10,261 bases of DNA from an uncultured Alphaproteobacteria bacterium (GTDB lineage: Bacteria; Pseudomonadota; Alphaproteobacteria; RF32; CAG-239). The translations under genes and the position numbers were made by a program. The stretch is taken from the NCBI GenBank assembly GCA_946618745.1, contig CAMOLN010000015.1, positions 1-10,261 of the forward strand, in the 5' to 3' direction. This document shows, piece by piece, positions 6,184 to 10,261 of the stretch. Numbering within the stretch: position 1 is the stretch's first letter; every line of letters starts with the position of its first letter. The notes below the pieces were generated by a model that saw nothing but the letters and a program-made list of their open reading frames with translations, was not told the DNA's origin and did no database searches.

Positions 6184-7992
6184 TCAATTATGGAAGTAAT
6201 TATATATCTTTTCCGCCGTTTTTTTGCTCACTCCCTCTATTTTTTGTAAATCAGCAATTGATGCCTGAGCCACATCTTTAACCGAACCGAAATATCGAAG
6301 CAGTTCTTTTTTACGTTTTCCGCCGATTCCCTCAATCTCATCAAGGCTCGATTTACTCATTGATTTAGCCCGTTTCTTACGATGCGTACCTATGGCAAAT
6401 CTATGTGCCTCATCCCGCAGATTCTGCATATAAAACGCCAATGGCGAACGATATTCCAAATCAAAACTTTCCCTATCCTTGATATGATAAAACTCTCTGC
6501 CGGCATTTCTATCTTCGCCTTTAGATATTCCCACTATCAATATTTTGCTCAAATCATAATCTTTTAAGGCCTCATGCACTGCATTTAATTGACCTCTGCC
6601 CCCGTCCAATAAAATAACATCGGGACGATTTTCTTCACTCATCCGGTCAAATCTGCGTTTCAAAACTTCTTTCATCATCGCAAAATCATCTCGCGTTTCT
6701 GCGGTATATTTAATATCAAACGTGCGATAACTTTTTTTATCAAACCCCTCCGGAGTTGCCACAATCATCGCCCCGATAGCATAACTTCCCTGATTGTGCG
6801 AATTATCATACACTTCAATCCGCTTAGGAATTTCTTTCAATCCGAATTTTTCTCTCATTGCCTCCAAATTAGCCTTAACCGAAGCCTCCATAGCCAACTT
6901 ACGCCTTATGGCATCAACTGCATTATTATAAGCAAACTCCGCCAATTTACGTTTATTTCCTGCTTTAGGCAATAAAACTTTTGTTCCCAATGCCGCATTC
7001 CACCATTCATCATCGATTTCATCAAAACAAATTATCTCTTTCGGCACCGCATGTTCGGCATAAAACTCTCCCATAAAAGCCTCAGCCACTTCTACTGCAC
7101 TCGCTCCTTCGGCCTGATCGGGAAAATAAACCGCATTACCGCAATTCTGTCCTGCGCGAATAAAAAATATTTCCACCGCCGTCAAATCACCCATCTGCGC
7201 CACCGCAATCACATCGGCCGACTTTATCGCTGAATATTCCACATTCTGCCGCGATTGAATATTGCTCAAAGCTCTTATTCTGTCTCTTAACACCAACGCT
7301 TTTTCAAAATCCAGCGCTTCACTTGCTTTTTCCATCTGTTCATACAGATTCTTTTGCAAACTGTCATCATCACCTTCCAAAAAAGCTATCGCCTTATCCA
7401 CCAATTGCCGATATTCTTCTTTACTTATCAATCCCACACAAGGTGCCGAACACCGTTTTATCTGATACATCAGGCAAGGCCTTTGCCGATTGGCAAACAC
7501 TGCATCACGACATGAGCGCAACAAAAATCCCTTCTGCACTACACTCACCACTTCATTAACCGCCAAAACCGACGCAAACGGACCGAAATATTTATTTTTG
7601 CCTTTTCTTCCGCCGCGATATTTTGATAACTTAGGAAAATCAGCCCCCGTATCAATCGTCAAATAAGGAAAAGTCTTGTCATCTTTCAGCAAAATATTAT
7701 AACGCGGCTTAAATTTTTTAATCAGCTCATTTTCCACCAACAAGGCCCGCGCCTCATCTTCCACCACAATAAATTCCATCTTGGCGATTTGTGCCACCAT
7801 TTGTTGCAACCTGACCGGCAATTTATTGATATGCGAATAAGCAGTTATGCGTTTTTTGATACTCTTGGCTTTGCCCACATAAAGCACCTCCCCCTTATCA
7901 TCAATCATCCGATAAACTCCCGGATTCGCCGGAGCCACTTTGATATGTGCCTGTAAATTAGCCAAACCTTTTTGAATATCAAACAATTTCAT
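6184..7992 (-). CDS. uvrC: UvrABC excinuclease subunit C
   Basis: UvrC makes both incisions around bulky DNA lesions after UvrA/UvrB recognition. All expected parts are present (numbered from GTG 8001; subtract 3 from ATG 7992). The GIY-YIG nuclease is at about 27-100 (NPGVYRMIDDKGEVLYVGKAK). Four cysteines, 164, 176, 184 and 188, have the 12-8-4 spacing of the E. coli iron-sulfur ligands. A UVR domain lies at about 208-235. The RNase H-like 5' nuclease has Asp399 in VYDNSHNQGS, Asp438, Asp466 in LLDGGRGQLN, and His533. Two C-terminal helix-hairpin-helix motifs lie at 562-603. Total length is about 600 residues, normal for the family. The start is ambiguous: GTG 8001, ATG 7992 and TTG 7986 are all in frame. 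A GAGGAG at 7994-7999 is 1 nt from the ATG but 7 nt from the TTG. It is the first gene of the operon. Confidence 0.96.
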   Translation of the reverse strand: MKLFDIQKGLANLQAHIKVAPANPGVYRMIDDKGEVLYVGKAKSIKKRITAYSHINKLPVRLQQMVAQIAKMEFIVVEDEARALLVENELIKKFKPRYNILLKDDKTFPYLTIDTGADFPKLSKYRGGRKGKNKYFGPFASVLAVNEVVSVVQKGFLLRSCRDAVFANRQRPCLMYQIKRCSAPCVGLISKEEYRQLVDKAIAFLEGDDDSLQKNLYEQMEKASEALDFEKALVLRDRIRALSNIQSRQNVEYSAIKSADVIAVAQMGDLTAVEIFFIRAGQNCGNAVYFPDQAEGASAVEVAEAFMGEFYAEHAVPKEIICFDEIDDEWWNAALGTKVLLPKAGNKRKLAEFAYNNAVDAIRRKLAMEASVKANLEAMREKFGLKEIPKRIEVYDNSHNQGSYAIGAMIVATPEGFDKKSYRTFDIKYTAETRDDFAMMKEVLKRRFDRMSEENRPDVILLDGGRGQLNAVHEALKDYDLSKILIVGISKGEDRNAGREFYHIKDRESFDLEYRSPLAFYMQNLRDEAHRFAIGTHRKKRAKSMSKSSLDEIEGIGGKRKKELLRYFGSVKDVAQASIADLQKIEGVSKKTAEKIYNYFHN

Positions 7993-8008
7993 TCTCCTCA
8001 CGCTCTAA

Positions 8009-8036
8009 ATATTAGCCTTTACCCTTCAAAAATCAA
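8009..8036 (-). promoter_or_regulatory. Candidate sigma70 promoter of the uvrC operon
   Basis: On the minus strand, TTGATT (8036-8031) and TAATAT (8014-8009) are separated by 16 nt. Each hexamer matches 4 of 6 consensus positions. Transcription would begin near 8003, giving almost no 5' leader before the GTG/ATG/TTG start cluster of uvrC. The site lies between the terminator at 8042-8074 and uvrC, where a promoter is needed. Confidence 0.4.
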
Positions 8037-8041
8037 GCACA

Positions 8042-8074
8042 AAAAAAGGTCCTGCCTCAAGCAAGACCTTTTTT
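8042..8074 (-). terminator. Rho-independent terminator of the micro-gene operon
   Basis: Two 14-nt arms, 8042-8055 and 8061-8074, enclose a 5-nt loop. They have one non-Watson-Crick position, which is a G-U pair in minus-strand RNA but a C-A mismatch in plus-strand RNA, so the terminator works best on the minus strand. The A/T arms supply a U-run on either strand. It begins 3 nt after the stop of the 8078-8239 gene and insulates uvrC. Confidence 0.85.
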
Positions 8075-8077
8075 CTT

Positions 8078-8239
8078 TTAGTGCCCCGGATAATTGGCCT
8101 CGGGGTTTTGCTCACTGATCTGTTTTTTCAGGCGATCGATTTCATCGCTTTGCCGAGCGATGATCTTCGCCATTGCCCCCATCCATATCATCATGCCGAC
8201 AATAACCAGGAGCAAAATCAAAATTCCAAATGTCTTCAT
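8078..8239 (-). CDS. Micro-protein, one membrane helix plus charged tail (53 aa)
   Basis: This gene starts at ATG 8239, runs 53 codons and stops with TAA at 8080-8078. Residues 4-24 are a continuous hydrophobic helix (FGILILLLVIVGMMIWMGAM). Residues 25-45 are charged and helix-forming (AKIIARQSDEIDRLKKQ) with a heptad-like spacing of I and L that could form a short coiled coil, and the protein ends NYPGH. It looks like a small bitopic membrane protein with a cytoplasmic coiled-coil stub. Family and function are not recognised. It is the last of three tandem micro-genes, 31 nt after the one before, and is followed at once by a terminator. No Shine-Dalgarno is visible; the 25 nt before the ATG are nearly all A and T. 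Support comes from organisation and protein character. Confidence 0.7.
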   Translation of the reverse strand: MKTFGILILLLVIVGMMIWMGAMAKIIARQSDEIDRLKKQISEQNPEANYPGH

Positions 8240-8270
8240 AATACTTATTTTTTAATTTTTTAAGGTTTAA

Positions 8271-8396
8271 CTAATCGAAATCTCCCATCATGAGATATCT
8301 GTCGCGTTTTCTGCCCCGCCGTTCCTTTTTCAGCAAAACGGCTAAAACGATATTCAGCAATACCGATACAATCAAAGATACAATTAAAATCTTCAT
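8271..8396 (-). CDS. Micro-protein, one membrane helix plus basic tail (41 aa)
   Basis: ATG 8396 opens 41 codons ending in TAG at 8273-8271. Residues 1-22 (MKILIVSLIVSVLLNIVLAV) are a membrane helix, and 23-33 are strongly basic (KKERRGRKRDR), which predicts an N-out/C-in orientation. The first 19 residues match the neighbouring 8421-8582 product at 15 positions, and the first 57 bases match at 44, so the two genes are duplicates that diverged in the tail. A basic tail on a short helix also occurs in type I toxins and in small membrane-complex subunits; nothing here decides between these. It lies 24 nt after the previous micro-gene and 31 nt before the next. No Shine-Dalgarno is seen. Confidence 0.68.
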   Translation of the reverse strand: MKILIVSLIVSVLLNIVLAVLLKKERRGRKRDRYLMMGDFD

Positions 8397-8420
8397 AACA
8401 ACTAATTTTTAGATTTTACA

Positions 8421-8582
8421 CTAATCATTAGCTAAAGTATCCCCATGTATCTCCCATTGCCTCTGATTGAGCCTGCGCTCATACTCCAGTTGGCATATTT
8501 GTCGACGATACCTTAATATTCCGATGGCAAGAAAGATATTAAACGCCACCGATACAATCAGTAAAACAATTAAAATTTTCAT
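8421..8582 (-). CDS. Micro-protein, one membrane helix plus charged tail (53 aa), paralogue of neighbour
   Basis: ATG 8582 opens 53 codons ending in TAG at 8423-8421. Residues 1-22 (MKILIVLLIVSVAFNIFLAI) form a membrane helix. Residues 24-53 are hydrophilic (LRYRRQICQLEYERRLNQRQ, ending in DTLAND) and could be helical. It is the first gene of the three-gene micro-operon and shares its N-terminal helix with the 41-codon gene downstream. The tails differ entirely, as if the helix is the conserved working part or an anchor for variable tails. There is no Shine-Dalgarno; the start lies in an A/T-only context. Function unknown. Confidence 0.68.
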   Translation of the reverse strand: MKILIVLLIVSVAFNIFLAIGILRYRRQICQLEYERRLNQRQWEIHGDTLAND

Positions 8583-8681
8583 AAAATAATATTTAAGTTA
8601 ATAATCCAAATTGAGCTTTGATACTATATCTATAATTTTCGCTTGTCCAGCAAAAAAATCTCTTATTTTTAACGAAAACTG
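8583..8681. other. Divergent intergenic region between the micro-operon and the plus-strand unit
   Basis: This is an A/T-rich spacer with no gene. On the minus strand TTGCTG near 8653 could serve as a -35 for the micro-operon, with TATAGT 19 nt downstream, but the spacing is poor and I do not call a promoter there. Confidence 0.5.
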
Positions 8682-8710
8682 TTGCAAAAATGACAAAATT
8701 ATGGTATAAT
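8682..8710 (+). promoter_or_regulatory. Strong extended -10 sigma70 promoter
   Basis: TTGCAA (8682-8687) and a perfect TATAAT (8705-8710) are separated by exactly 17 nt. A TG at 8702-8703 adds the extended -10 element. Predicted transcription start is near 8717. It drives the structured leader and the 117-aa gene, divergent from the micro-operon. Confidence 0.75.
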
Positions 8711-8778
8711 TAAATTATAAAATATAATTAACATTTATTATTAACCAATTACCACAAAGACTGAAAGAAGAAAAAAGT

Positions 8779-8919
8779 TTGGTTATCCAAATTGTCGGAG
8801 GCATTATCCGTGAGGATAGTGATAAGTGCAATCAATCAGCACGAGGCTTCAGCAAGGCCCGCCCAAGTTTTCGCAAGGTTGCGACGGGAGAAAAATTACG
8901 ACTTTTTCAACTAAACCAA
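8779..8919 (+). ncRNA. Candidate structured leader or small RNA (family not recognised)
   Basis: Several hairpins occur in order: CATTATCC/GGATAGTG closed by a GTGA (GNRA) tetraloop at 8802-8821; GTGC/GCAC at 8826-8842; GGCTT/AAGGCC with a bulge at 8845-8859; TCGCA/TGCGA with loop AGGT at 8871-8884, which CCCG 8858-8861 and CGGG 8885-8888 could extend by borrowing from the third hairpin; and GAAAAA/TTTTTC at 8890-8908. TTGGTT (8779-8784) can pair with AACCAA (8914-8919) to close the domain. It lies between a strong promoter and the ATG at 8961 with no terminator between, so it is more likely a 5' leader of the 117-aa gene than a separate RNA. I could not match it to tmRNA, SRP, RNase P, 6S or a known riboswitch. 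An open frame without an ATG overlaps it, so coding cannot be fully excluded. Confidence 0.35.
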
Positions 8920-8960
8920 GTATTCTCTAGGAATTTGCGGCAATATTAAAAAACAAAAAT

Positions 8961-9314
8961 ATGGCACAAGTATTTAGTTTTGCTGTAAACCATTGGTGGA
9001 TTATCCTCGCCGGCATCGCCCTCCTTCCCACCTTGTTTTGGGCACTTTGGCCCTTTGTATTGGCCATTTTCGAACCAAAGGGGCTGACTATCCTTCCATA
9101 TAAAGAATATTGGGAGGAAGTAATATTAGCGGGACGTGACACAAAGAAAAGACATTGGTGGGAGTGGATACTCTGCACCAAATGGGTGCGGCTGATGAAC
9201 CGCATAACCTTCTTATGGATCTGGGGCTACCTCCTATTCCTGGTGGGTTATGCCATCGGTGTAGCCATCCACTGGATCGGCCGCGGCGTTGCTGCCGTAT
9301 ATAGGGCAATCTAA
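8961..9314 (+). CDS. Tryptophan-rich small membrane protein (117 aa), unknown function
   Basis: I do not recognise this protein. It has two membrane helices at about 13-37 and 83-105 and a hydrophilic loop at about 38-82 with mixed charges (EPKGLTILPYKEYWEEVI, RDTKKRHWWEWI). Twelve of 117 residues are tryptophan, clustered as HWW, FWALW, HWWEW and LWIWG near the predicted membrane borders, which suggests an interfacial membrane protein. ATG 8961 follows the A-rich stretch AAAAAACAAAAAT with no Shine-Dalgarno. Hand-counted GC of the gene is 174 of 354 (49%), clearly above the sampled stretches of the minus-strand operon (20 of 60 in asmA, 26 of 60 in uvrC). It is transcribed from the promoter at 8682-8710 through a long structured leader and ends before a strong terminator. 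Confidence 0.75.
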   Translation: MAQVFSFAVNHWWIILAGIALLPTLFWALWPFVLAIFEPKGLTILPYKEYWEEVILAGRDTKKRHWWEWILCTKWVRLMNRITFLWIWGYLLFLVGYAIGVAIHWIGRGVAAVYRAI

Positions 9315-9329
9315 ATAAAGCCCTACCTG

Positions 9330-9370
9330 CCCCGTTCCTGTTGTGAAACACGAACGGGGTTACCTTTTTT
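9330..9370 (+). terminator. Rho-independent terminator of the 117-aa gene
   Basis: The 8-bp arms CCCCGTTC (9330-9337) and GAACGGGG (9352-9359) extend, past one C/C mismatch, into TGTT/AACA closed by a GTGA tetraloop. Six T's follow at 9365-9370 after a short TTACC spacer. It starts 15 nt after the stop codon. Confidence 0.88.
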
Positions 9371-9403
9371 AAACCTAAAAAATTTTTCCCCTGCAAAATT
9401 ATC

Positions 9404-9431
9404 TTGAAAAATACAGAATAACTTCTATACT
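9404..9431 (+). promoter_or_regulatory. Sigma70-like promoter of the 87-aa gene
   Basis: TTGAAA (9404-9409, 5 of 6) and TATACT (9426-9431, 5 of 6) are separated by 16 nt. Transcription would start near 9438, leaving a 28-nt A/T-rich leader with no Shine-Dalgarno. The preceding terminator makes a separate promoter necessary. Confidence 0.65.
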
Positions 9432-9465
9432 GCACGTAATTATAATTTTTAATCTATTTATTATT

Positions 9466-9729
9466 ATGAAAACAAAATTTATAAAAAGAAATGAATTAAA
9501 GCCCTTTCTCCTTGGTGTCGGCGCTTGGATTGTAATTATGGTAATATTGCAATTCTTTGTCGGTTGGGAAAGCGCTTTGCTGTTGAGCCTGGCGGCAATG
9601 CTTTTGATAGGAGCCGTTGTTTTCATATACGACACTTTCAAAAAAGGTCGAAACGGTGTCTTATTGGCCTATGCTATCTGGGCTATACTCCTAGCCGTGG
9701 TTTTGGCAATTGAAGCTCTTAAGCCTTAA
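9466..9729 (+). CDS. Small three-helix membrane protein (87 aa), unknown function
   Basis: After a basic N-terminus (MKTKFIKRNELK) there are three predicted membrane helices at about 13-32, 36-55 and 64-83, with the short turn FVGWES and the basic loop DTFKKGRNG between them. By the positive-inside rule the N-terminus and the second loop are cytoplasmic. No catalytic motif is visible and I do not recognise the family; small multi-helix proteins of this kind include holins, immunity proteins and transporter accessories. The start ATG 9466 lies in TTTATTATT with no Shine-Dalgarno, as for the other small genes of this block. It has its own promoter and terminator. Confidence 0.75.
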   Translation: MKTKFIKRNELKPFLLGVGAWIVIMVILQFFVGWESALLLSLAAMLLIGAVVFIYDTFKKGRNGVLLAYAIWAILLAVVLAIEALKP

Positions 9730-9764
9730 AAAAAGTTTCTCTCACTCCCGAGAGAAACTTTTTT
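9729..9764 (+). terminator. Strong rho-independent terminator after the 87-aa gene
   Basis: There are perfect 15-nt arms at 9729-9743 and 9750-9764 with a 6-nt loop ACTCCC. The A-run and T-run in the arms make it usable from both strands. The stop codon TAA (9727-9729) touches its first base. Confidence 0.9.
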
Positions 9765-9772
9765 ATTTAACC

Positions 9773-9940
9773 AACCTACAAACATTTTCTCAAACAACTT
9801 TTATATAATAAAACTTGGGATAGTGCGTAAATAATAAAAACTCTCTTAAAAGCGACAAAAATCGCCTCAACATCATCAAAACTGCGAAGAATGGTACAGA
9901 TAAAGTCAAAATAAGAAGAGAGAAAATTCCAGTGTAGATA
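9773..9940. repeat. Tandem repeat unit 1 (168 bp)
   Basis: It begins AACCTACAAACATTTT and is nearly identical to the next unit, with only a few substitutions and one A-run indel. It contains the 18-bp arm at 9836-9853, a GCGA/TCGC hairpin at 9852-9865, and CTCTCTT (9841-9847) that can pair with AAGAGAG (9916-9922) across about 80 nt. A TATAAT lies upstream of the arm, without a good -35. No ORF is present. Confidence 0.85.
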
Positions 9941-10110
9941 AACCTACAAACATTTTTTCAAACTATTTTTATATAATAAAACTTGGGATAGTGCGTAAAT
10001 AATAAAAAACTCTCTTAAAAGCGACAAAAATCGCCTCAACATCCTCAAAACTGCGAAGAATGGTACAGATAAAGTCAAAATAAGAAGAGAGAAAATTCTA
10101 ATGTAGTAAA
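9941..10110. repeat. Tandem repeat unit 2 (170 bp)
   Basis: It directly follows unit 1 and matches it over its full length. Differences include C to T in the ATTTTCTC stretch, AA to TA in CAAACAAC, ATCATC to ATCCTC, and TTCCAGTG to TTCTAATG. The 18-bp arm recurs at 10005-10022. Its end can form a small inverted repeat with the next unit (ATGTAG/CTACAT). Confidence 0.85.
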
Positions 10111-10180
10111 AGCCTACATGGCCTTGTATAGTAAAACTCGGATAGCGTGCGTAAATAATAAAAAACCCTCTTAAAAGCGA
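10111..10180. repeat. Diverged third repeat unit, left part only
   Basis: AGCCTACA at its start and the stretch from about GTAAAACTCGGATAG through GTAAATAATAAAAAAC to AAAAGCGACA match units 1 and 2 with small indels. After 10182 the sequence is unrelated to those units. The homology stops inside the loop of the palindrome described separately. Confidence 0.75.
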
Positions 10181-10255
10181 CAGGAGTGTACTTGGGGTAC
10201 ATGACTTAGCTTTTAAGAGAGTTTTTGTATTAGTTACCAGCTAGACGAGTTTTAC
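10131..10255. repeat. Nested palindromic element, possible MITE-like unit or bidirectional terminator
   Basis: The outer inverted repeat is GTAAAACTCG (10131-10140) with CGAGTTTTAC (10246-10255). The inner arms at 10161-10178 and 10209-10226 pair at 17 of 18 positions, with a G-U pair at the exception in minus-strand RNA. The centre holds TGTAC/GTACA around TTGGG (10188-10202). T-runs border the inner arms on both strands, so it could also terminate transcription both ways. The element is 125 bp and carries no gene. Mobility is inferred from shape only. Confidence 0.6.
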
Positions 10256-10261
10256 ACTGCC

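Follow-up and report, generated by a model that had tools for sequence, protein, structure and literature searches.

Do three very short reading frames, lined up in tandem upstream of uvrC in an uncultured gut alphaproteobacterium, encode a set of membrane proteins, and what might such a set do? The frames lie in a stretch of 10,261 bases, here called the window, that makes up the entire contig G000:C15 of a host genome of 1.12 Mb (197 contigs, 85% complete). A sequence-only reading of this DNA had described them as an operon of single-helix micro-genes and offered three possible roles: type I toxin-like peptides, small subunits of a membrane complex, or part of a small mobile module. Judged by uvrC, the nearest named relatives are uncultured bacteria of gut and rumen, most of whose records bear the title Alphaproteobacteria; the loci L005 (87% identity) and L052 (86%) both stand in records titled "uncultured proteobacterium."

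The micro-gene locus

The features of the locus, all on the minus strand, are as follows.

8621..8649, minus: TGGACA-N17-TAGTAT, the operon's promoter-like element, from a promoter scan and alignment
8583..8606, minus: AT-rich leader ATTATTAACTTAA before ORF3, with no Shine-Dalgarno site
8421..8582, minus: ORF3, 53 aa, with one helix at the N-terminus; its tandem paralogue is ORF2, from which it has diverged
8271..8396, minus: ORF2, 41 aa, single helix and strongly basic tail, ending GDFD
8078..8239, minus: ORF1, 53 aa, long helix running through the membrane into a coil that would lie on the cytoplasmic side, ending NYPGH
8042..8074, minus: terminator-like hairpin and T-run between ORF1 and uvrC, found as an inverted repeat
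6184..7989, minus: uvrC, the conserved downstream neighbor, with Pfam UvrC domains and its own Shine-Dalgarno site (leader GAGGAGAATG)

The order toward uvrC is ORF3, ORF2, ORF1, and the minus-strand frames of 53, 41 and 53 codons, with intergenic gaps of 24 and 31 nt, are as first described. The shared design that had been pointed out is also seen in all three frames: each begins MK, continues into one hydrophobic helix (N-terminal 17-residue hydropathy 2.85-2.98) and carries a charged tail. The statement that the frames are in register holds for ORF3 and ORF2, which have a common frame, but not for ORF1, which lies in another. A terminator-like structure follows the last frame: two arms of 14 nt (8042-8055 and 8061-8074) that are 93% complementary make an inverted repeat with a T-run. 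The list from a simple terminator scan does not include it, perhaps because the T-run pairs with an A-run. Two relatives of the host, G010 and G006, have a different hairpin and T-run at the same place after ORF1, as read by eye.

The frames as genes

The chance expectation was estimated from 3 Mb of random sequence, read on both strands and drawn from an order-3 model of window positions 7991-10261, the genes themselves included. With frames defined by at least 40 codons and an N-terminal hydrophobic stretch of at least 2.2, and pairs by a distance within 40 nt, this sequence gave 80 single frames of the micro-gene kind, no adjacent pair and no triple. The original argument that one such frame could be accidental while three could hardly be is borne out, and both conservation and an excess of synonymous change in relatives agree with it. 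Because ORF2 and ORF3 are paralogous (78% identity over 59 nt and 63% identity over the first 27 residues), the trio does not represent three independent inventions; it amounts to one tandem duplication plus ORF1.

Nei-Gojobori estimates of dN/dS between the window and G009 are 0.06 for ORF1 and 0.21 for ORF2, with uvrC at 0.048; between G010 and G011 they are 0.37 and 0.20, with uvrC at 0.025. These four gene pairs differ by 62 changes, stop codons excluded. Of these, 32 are synonymous, where a transition weight of 2 predicts 15.9 (P 1e-5) and a weight of 4 predicts 17.8 (P 1e-4). Pair by pair at weight 2, the excess is significant for ORF1 in window/G009 (P 9e-4) and for ORF2 in G010/G011 (P 0.004), and not significant for ORF2 in window/G009 (P 0.11) or ORF1 in G010/G011 (P 0.24). 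These counts cover the ORF1 and ORF2 pairs, so the dN/dS below 1 that had been put forward as a check is found for those two genes, while ORF3 is judged by its relatives at the protein level. Two of these, P0002 (83% identity) and P0003 (84%), retain the ORF3 tail WxIHGDTLAND, and the length change in P0003 is an in-frame insert of four residues. A further match, P0001 (98%), is not counted as independent, being marked like the window's own protein. On this evidence ORF1 and ORF2 are almost certainly genuine genes, and ORF3 is very probably one as well.

Family libraries assign no name to any of the three. A Pfam scan took in uvrC, five proteins encoded in the window island and two from the locus L002, eight in all. 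Neither in Pfam nor in NCBIfam does anything reach a cut-off for the trio, which looks like a new, unnamed family.

Distribution across the genus, the family and protein databases

Profiles of ORF2/3 and of ORF1 were run over 35 genomes of the genus, the window included. Sequences from the window, L005 and L052 seeded the ORF2/3 profile, and L009 was added for ORF1; the contigs of L005, L052 and L009 are those of G010, G011 and G006, which leaves G009 as the sole new find. ORF2-like frames at E < 1e-13 occur in 4 of the 35 genomes (window, G009, G010 and G011), and ORF1-like frames at E < 1e-18 in five (the same four and G006). Every match below 1e-13 sits upstream of uvrC. The full trio is present in one genome of the 35, and the profile search placed ORF3 in none of the other 34. 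The conserved, syntenic trio that had been anticipated therefore holds for ORF1 and ORF2, but not for the set of three. A clear ORF1 is missing by profile from 30 of the 35 genomes, as would be expected if its function is dispensable or if the family evolves too fast for detection.

The arrangement in G009 is that of the window minus ORF3: a rplO-like gene, frames of 87 and 135 aa on the other strand, ORF2, ORF1 and uvrC (rplO-like and other ribosomal genes were named by eye; the window contig stops short of rplO). In G010 and G011, a 47-aa ORF2-like frame and a 73-aa ORF1-like frame are flanked by rplO and uvrC. In G006, a 90-aa ORF1-like frame stands immediately before uvrC and is preceded by a gene for a 319-aa membrane protein.

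Across 152 genomes of the family, the search gave, beyond the genomes named, only weak matches that were taken as chance. Five weak ORF1 matches (E 0.001-0.009; one in G008, the other four outside the genus) and the weak matches within the genus (E 0.004-0.08; four to the ORF2/3 profile, five to that of ORF1) were dropped as likely chance, since they covered the profile partially, lay inside longer frames or contained stops.

Protein databases add further sequences. From a database of 5.8 billion proteins, 12 of 135 candidates belong to the ORF1 family, among them the G011 protein (P0006) and a longer-start version of that of G009 (P0008). All 12 carry the GH end, past which P0007 continues. 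Three ORF2-like proteins were found, one identical to that of G010. P0002 and P0017 come from contigs of equal length (3928, jgi), as do P0003 and P0010 (2246, lgn), which suggests but does not prove that ORF3 and ORF2, and ORF3 and ORF1, occur together elsewhere too.

As a separate observation, the 138-aa P0007 consists of ORF2-like and ORF1-like frames fused, with W at the stop positions, and is probably a gene call in which TGA was read as Trp. It shows ORF2/ORF1 adjacency on one more contig.

Origin and fate of ORF3

The synonymous divergence of ORF2 and ORF3 (dS 1.3, a rough value from 41 codons) exceeds that of uvrC between the window and G009 (dS 0.32), so the duplication appears to predate the split of these two lineages. 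ORF3 is probably old and would since have been lost in G009. There, the sequence ahead of the lone ORF2 matches that upstream of ORF3 in the window, and the second codon of the G009 ORF2 is that of ORF3, while the subsequent codons are those of ORF2, a rough pointer that comes down to one codon. Loss in G009 may thus have come about when the two 5' repeats recombined with each other.

The same facts bear on a rival account of the locus, in which only ORF1 and ORF2 count as genes: ORF3 would be a duplicate in decay, devoid of function, and the operon as a whole a recent lineage-specific orphan of little effect. The operon is missing from most genomes of the genus, and ORF3 was not found in G009, G010 or G011, as this account would have it. 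The WxIHGDTLAND tail is nevertheless preserved in two independent metagenomic relatives, in which the sole length change is in frame, and the dS comparison makes ORF3 probably old. Decay of ORF3 in an operon of little consequence appears rather unlikely.

Protein form and a candidate role

AlphaFold2 models ORF1 as one helix over residues 2-44 with a loose tail (mean pLDDT 80.0, pTM 0.37). Proteins of the ORF1 family range from 53 to 90 aa, the length varying by the coil, and a G-H end is present in 14 of 14 aligned sequences; in P0010 and P0011 the tail is conserved while the helix residues drift. Each protein has a conserved end of its own: [YF][PQ]GH in ORF1, FD in ORF2 and DTLAND in ORF3. 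The tail of ORF2 contains KKERRGRKR, compared with a single K before the helix, which by the positive-inside rule predicts a cytoplasmic tail. The charge of ORF3 and ORF1 leans toward a tail inside as well, less strongly than in ORF2.

A mechanism can be proposed on this basis. The three genes would be carried on one transcript and translated in the gut alphaproteobacterium as bitopic inner-membrane micro-proteins, with a short N-terminus outside and a charged tail in the cytoplasm, an orientation predicted from charge. The helix of ORF1 would continue as a cytoplasmic coil up to the conserved [YF][PQ]GH end, and ORF2 and its paralogue ORF3 would present tails that are basic next to the membrane and end in the conserved residues particular to each. 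Most likely the three proteins would act jointly, as small subunits with an accessory or regulatory part that bind to a larger enzyme or complex of the membrane. That the proteins are lineage-specific bitopic accessory or regulatory subunits with cytoplasmic tails, kept by selection, is the favored interpretation, and one about as apt to hold as to fail. Among the three roles proposed at the outset, small subunits of a membrane complex would be the best fit.

Small proteins such as AcrZ, CydX, MgrB and PspB associate in this way with larger membrane partners, and AcrZ, CydX, MgrB and SafA, found in other clades, bind known partners. Like AcrZ, CydX, MgrB and SafA, the micro-proteins have fewer than 60 residues, one membrane helix and a short gene of their own; unlike them, the trio matches nothing in Pfam or NCBIfam over a cut-off, a difference that stands for the library scan as a whole and not for family-by-family comparison. 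As short frames from uncultured microbes, the trio also resembles entries in a catalogue of small proteins of the global microbiome (PMC11364881). The locus adds a conserved, unnamed membrane micro-protein family from an uncultured gut clade, with its frames, promoter-like element and tails defined, and suggests that reading raw sequence can reveal micro-genes that the family libraries used here leave unnamed.

Alternative identities

Another possibility is that ORF1 is a diverged PspB or other envelope-stress sensor, whose N-terminal helix and cytoplasmic coil would sense membrane damage. The ORF1 of G011 weakly matches two NCBIfam PspB models (22.4 and 22.0 bits), and the ORF1-family member P0014 has a precomputed label PF06667, which we take to be PspB. 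The scores lie below half of the respective cut-offs (51.7 and 90 bits), the window ORF1 has no PspB match in Pfam or NCBIfam, and an FtsL model scores equally well on the G011 protein (24.2 bits), so that the match looks like one of helix-plus-coil composition. The partners PspA and PspC were each found in 0 of 35 genomes of the genus, while control genomes were positive in 9 of 14 and 7 of 14 cases. PspB consists of a TM helix followed by a helical cytoplasmic domain (PMC11237479), a plan that ORF1, with its predicted helix over residues 2-44 and an orientation assigned by charge only, may resemble. Given the scores and the missing partners, descent from PspB or a similar sensor is quite improbable.

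Other helix-plus-coil families were tried and rejected. FtsL scores stay below the cut-off for both the G011 ORF1 (24.2 of 42.45 bits) and the window ORF1 (15.9 of 50 bits, another FtsL model), as does LapA for the window ORF1 (19.2 of 28 bits); the relative P0011 carries a precomputed PF06305 label (LapA). The likeness to FtsL and LapA consists of a helix plus coil and weak matches, but the neighbor of the micro-genes is uvrC and not a cell-division or LPS gene. Searching PDB sequences with the ORF1 profile returned 20 weak matches, the best at E 0.01; coiled coils account for several, and none is a nameable relative. The anti-phage defense models of PADLOC-DB matched none of five proteins at E 0.1.

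The trio could instead be type I toxin-like membrane peptides held under repression by an antisense RNA, the first of the roles originally suggested. In size, in the lone hydrophobic helix and in the basic tail they conform to this type, and the tandem duplication of ORF2 and ORF3 agrees with it too. The soluble tails, however, are conserved between species up to their C-terminal ends, and one locus was found in the 85%-complete genome. No Rfam family exceeds its gathering score: the four weak matches reach up to E 1, and one of them (E 0.019, 20 of 440 bits) covers ORF1 and the terminator. Plus-strand promoter-like sites within the operon number three, each with 9/12 matches. No known antisense RNA family stands over its threshold at the locus, though an antisense RNA of a new kind may exist; the toxin proposal is unsupported and very improbable.

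Least probable of all is that the frames are remnant lysis genes, an Rz-like i-spanin and a holin, of a lost phage. ORF1 weakly matches PHROG models of Rz-like spanins (739, 214 and 89; 20.5 bits, E 8.5e-4), which share its plan of helix and coil, and a phage-lysozyme-domain protein encoded on contig G000:C75 has a leader and first codons like those of ORF1. The coil of an i-spanin, however, lies outside the inner membrane, opposite to the inside position that charge predicts for the tails here, and by eye no phage gene is found among the window frames, so that the trio stands without recognized phage context. DNA searches with the interval 8000-10261 found nothing among 50,697 phage records and 72,556 plasmid records, tblastn gave no match for the G011 ORF1 in phages or for ORF3 in plasmids, and neither ORF3 nor ORF1 nor the divergent gene's 117-aa protein has a confirmed relative on viral contigs: pattern searches hit viral contigs 92 times for ORF3 and 56 times for ORF1, and in no case is a relative encoded. 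The suggestion of a small mobile module finds no support, given the same absence of phage and plasmid DNA matches and of confirmed viral-contig relatives of ORF3 and ORF1, and given the position of all matches below 1e-13 upstream of uvrC; no integrase or transposase is seen by eye among the window frames.

Leaders and expression

The element TGGACA-N17-TAGTAT (8649..8621) has 9/12 promoter matches. A promoter scan of the stretch gave 10 sites against 7.5 expected, so a promoter-like site alone proves little. In an alignment of the window, G009, G010 and G011, which amount to two close species pairs, CTGGACAA, an AAAA run and TATA are invariant, and the leader letters ATTATTAA(C/T)TTAA, with the bracketed letter varying, precede the first gene in each of the four.

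The leaders themselves are of an unusual kind. Of 16 leaders of island genes from five genomes, 0 match the Shine-Dalgarno sequence over four bases between -17 and -5; the leader of a 139-aa gene in G011 has AAGG starting at -18. Four of the five host genes scored in the window have a Shine-Dalgarno match, as do 125 of 196 frames of at least 250 aa on two contigs of G011 at their first ATG, and 80% of the same frames in a laxer count that takes any start within 40 codons; by contrast, when every ATG on a single strand of one contig is counted, 8% have the match. The A+T content of the leaders is 87% in the island versus 70% in comparison. Initiation without a Shine-Dalgarno site and with A at -3 is reported for Bacteroidetes (PMC6847099). 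An A at -3 occurs in 9 of 16 island leaders, a parallel to Shine-Dalgarno-free initiation in Bacteroidetes that is suggestive only. The operon might then belong to a genus-wide class of orphan genes whose AT-rich, Shine-Dalgarno-free leaders often end ATT-ATG and which, in a bacterium whose core genes mostly rely on Shine-Dalgarno sites, would be initiated separately and controlled together, with the structured leader RNA of the divergent gene (described below) involved; this is offered as a tentative idea that is rather unlikely. If such a leader does mark a class, it would give a handle on the expression of orphan genes in these bacteria.

Similar leaders were noticed before other short genes of G011, at L147 (G011:C2:86700-88272), L131 and L142; labeled by eye, these genes comprise an acyl-carrier-like protein cluster and proteins with repeated FDLPxxER motifs. 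On G000:C75 (L117/L002), two divergent genes, each with an AT-rich leader, lie beside a gene end that is presumably der-like. One encodes a lipoprotein-like protein that has a phage-lysozyme domain, the other a membrane protein of 333 aa. A stretch of 44 nt over the leader and first codons of the lysozyme-domain gene is 85% like that of ORF1.

The divergent gene and its structured leader RNA

A divergent gene (8961-9314, plus strand) encodes a 117-aa membrane protein, and part of its leader, 8777-8919, folds into seven helices. Three copies of this leader RNA were compared, in the window (8777-8919, plus strand), at L119 (1562-1704) and at L126 (517-659); the two besides the window's lie on contigs C17 and C22 of G009, that on C22 being 74% identical over 233 nt. 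Paired changes fall in two hairpins, and the second G009 copy precedes a different small membrane protein. Across three sequences the model has 38 pairs, 98.2% of cells paired and five pairs changed on both sides. Two of 500 shuffles attain these values, and slid versions are 33-48% paired; the number of further pair types does not exceed the shuffles, and the single-sequence fold has a z-score of -1.94. Rfam gives no match over 8777-8919, a search of 152 family genomes with the model, under filters that miss weaker matches, finds only the three copies, and an exact 31-base pattern occurs in none of the viral contigs.

The 117-aa gene and its G009 counterpart (L109 3815-4222) differ at dS 1.3, while the leader is 96% identical and the next gene has dS 0.09. 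Divergence of the gene between nearly unchanged flanks suggests that it underwent allele replacement.

The region upstream of uvrC

Other small single-helix proteins (36-112 aa, AT-rich leaders) are encoded upstream of uvrC at L008, L009 and L012. In a scan of this region, from which L046 was excluded beforehand as it starts inside uvrC, a frame was found in 10 of 48 loci versus 21 of 663 control stretches. Judged by eye, the frames at L020, L022, L023, L036 and L083 and the 71-aa frame of L009 either belong to other genes or arose by chance, which leaves 5 of 48. The region upstream of uvrC may be a hot spot for small single-helix genes. The L083 record (JAISVX010000005.1) is titled Lactobacillaceae, probably wrongly; its uvrC is 62% identical to that of the window.

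At the far end of the window, 9773-10261 contains direct repeats of 68 and 107 nt, pieces of which recur on contigs C43, C130, C144 and C172 and after rplO in G009. These repeats are a dispersed element.
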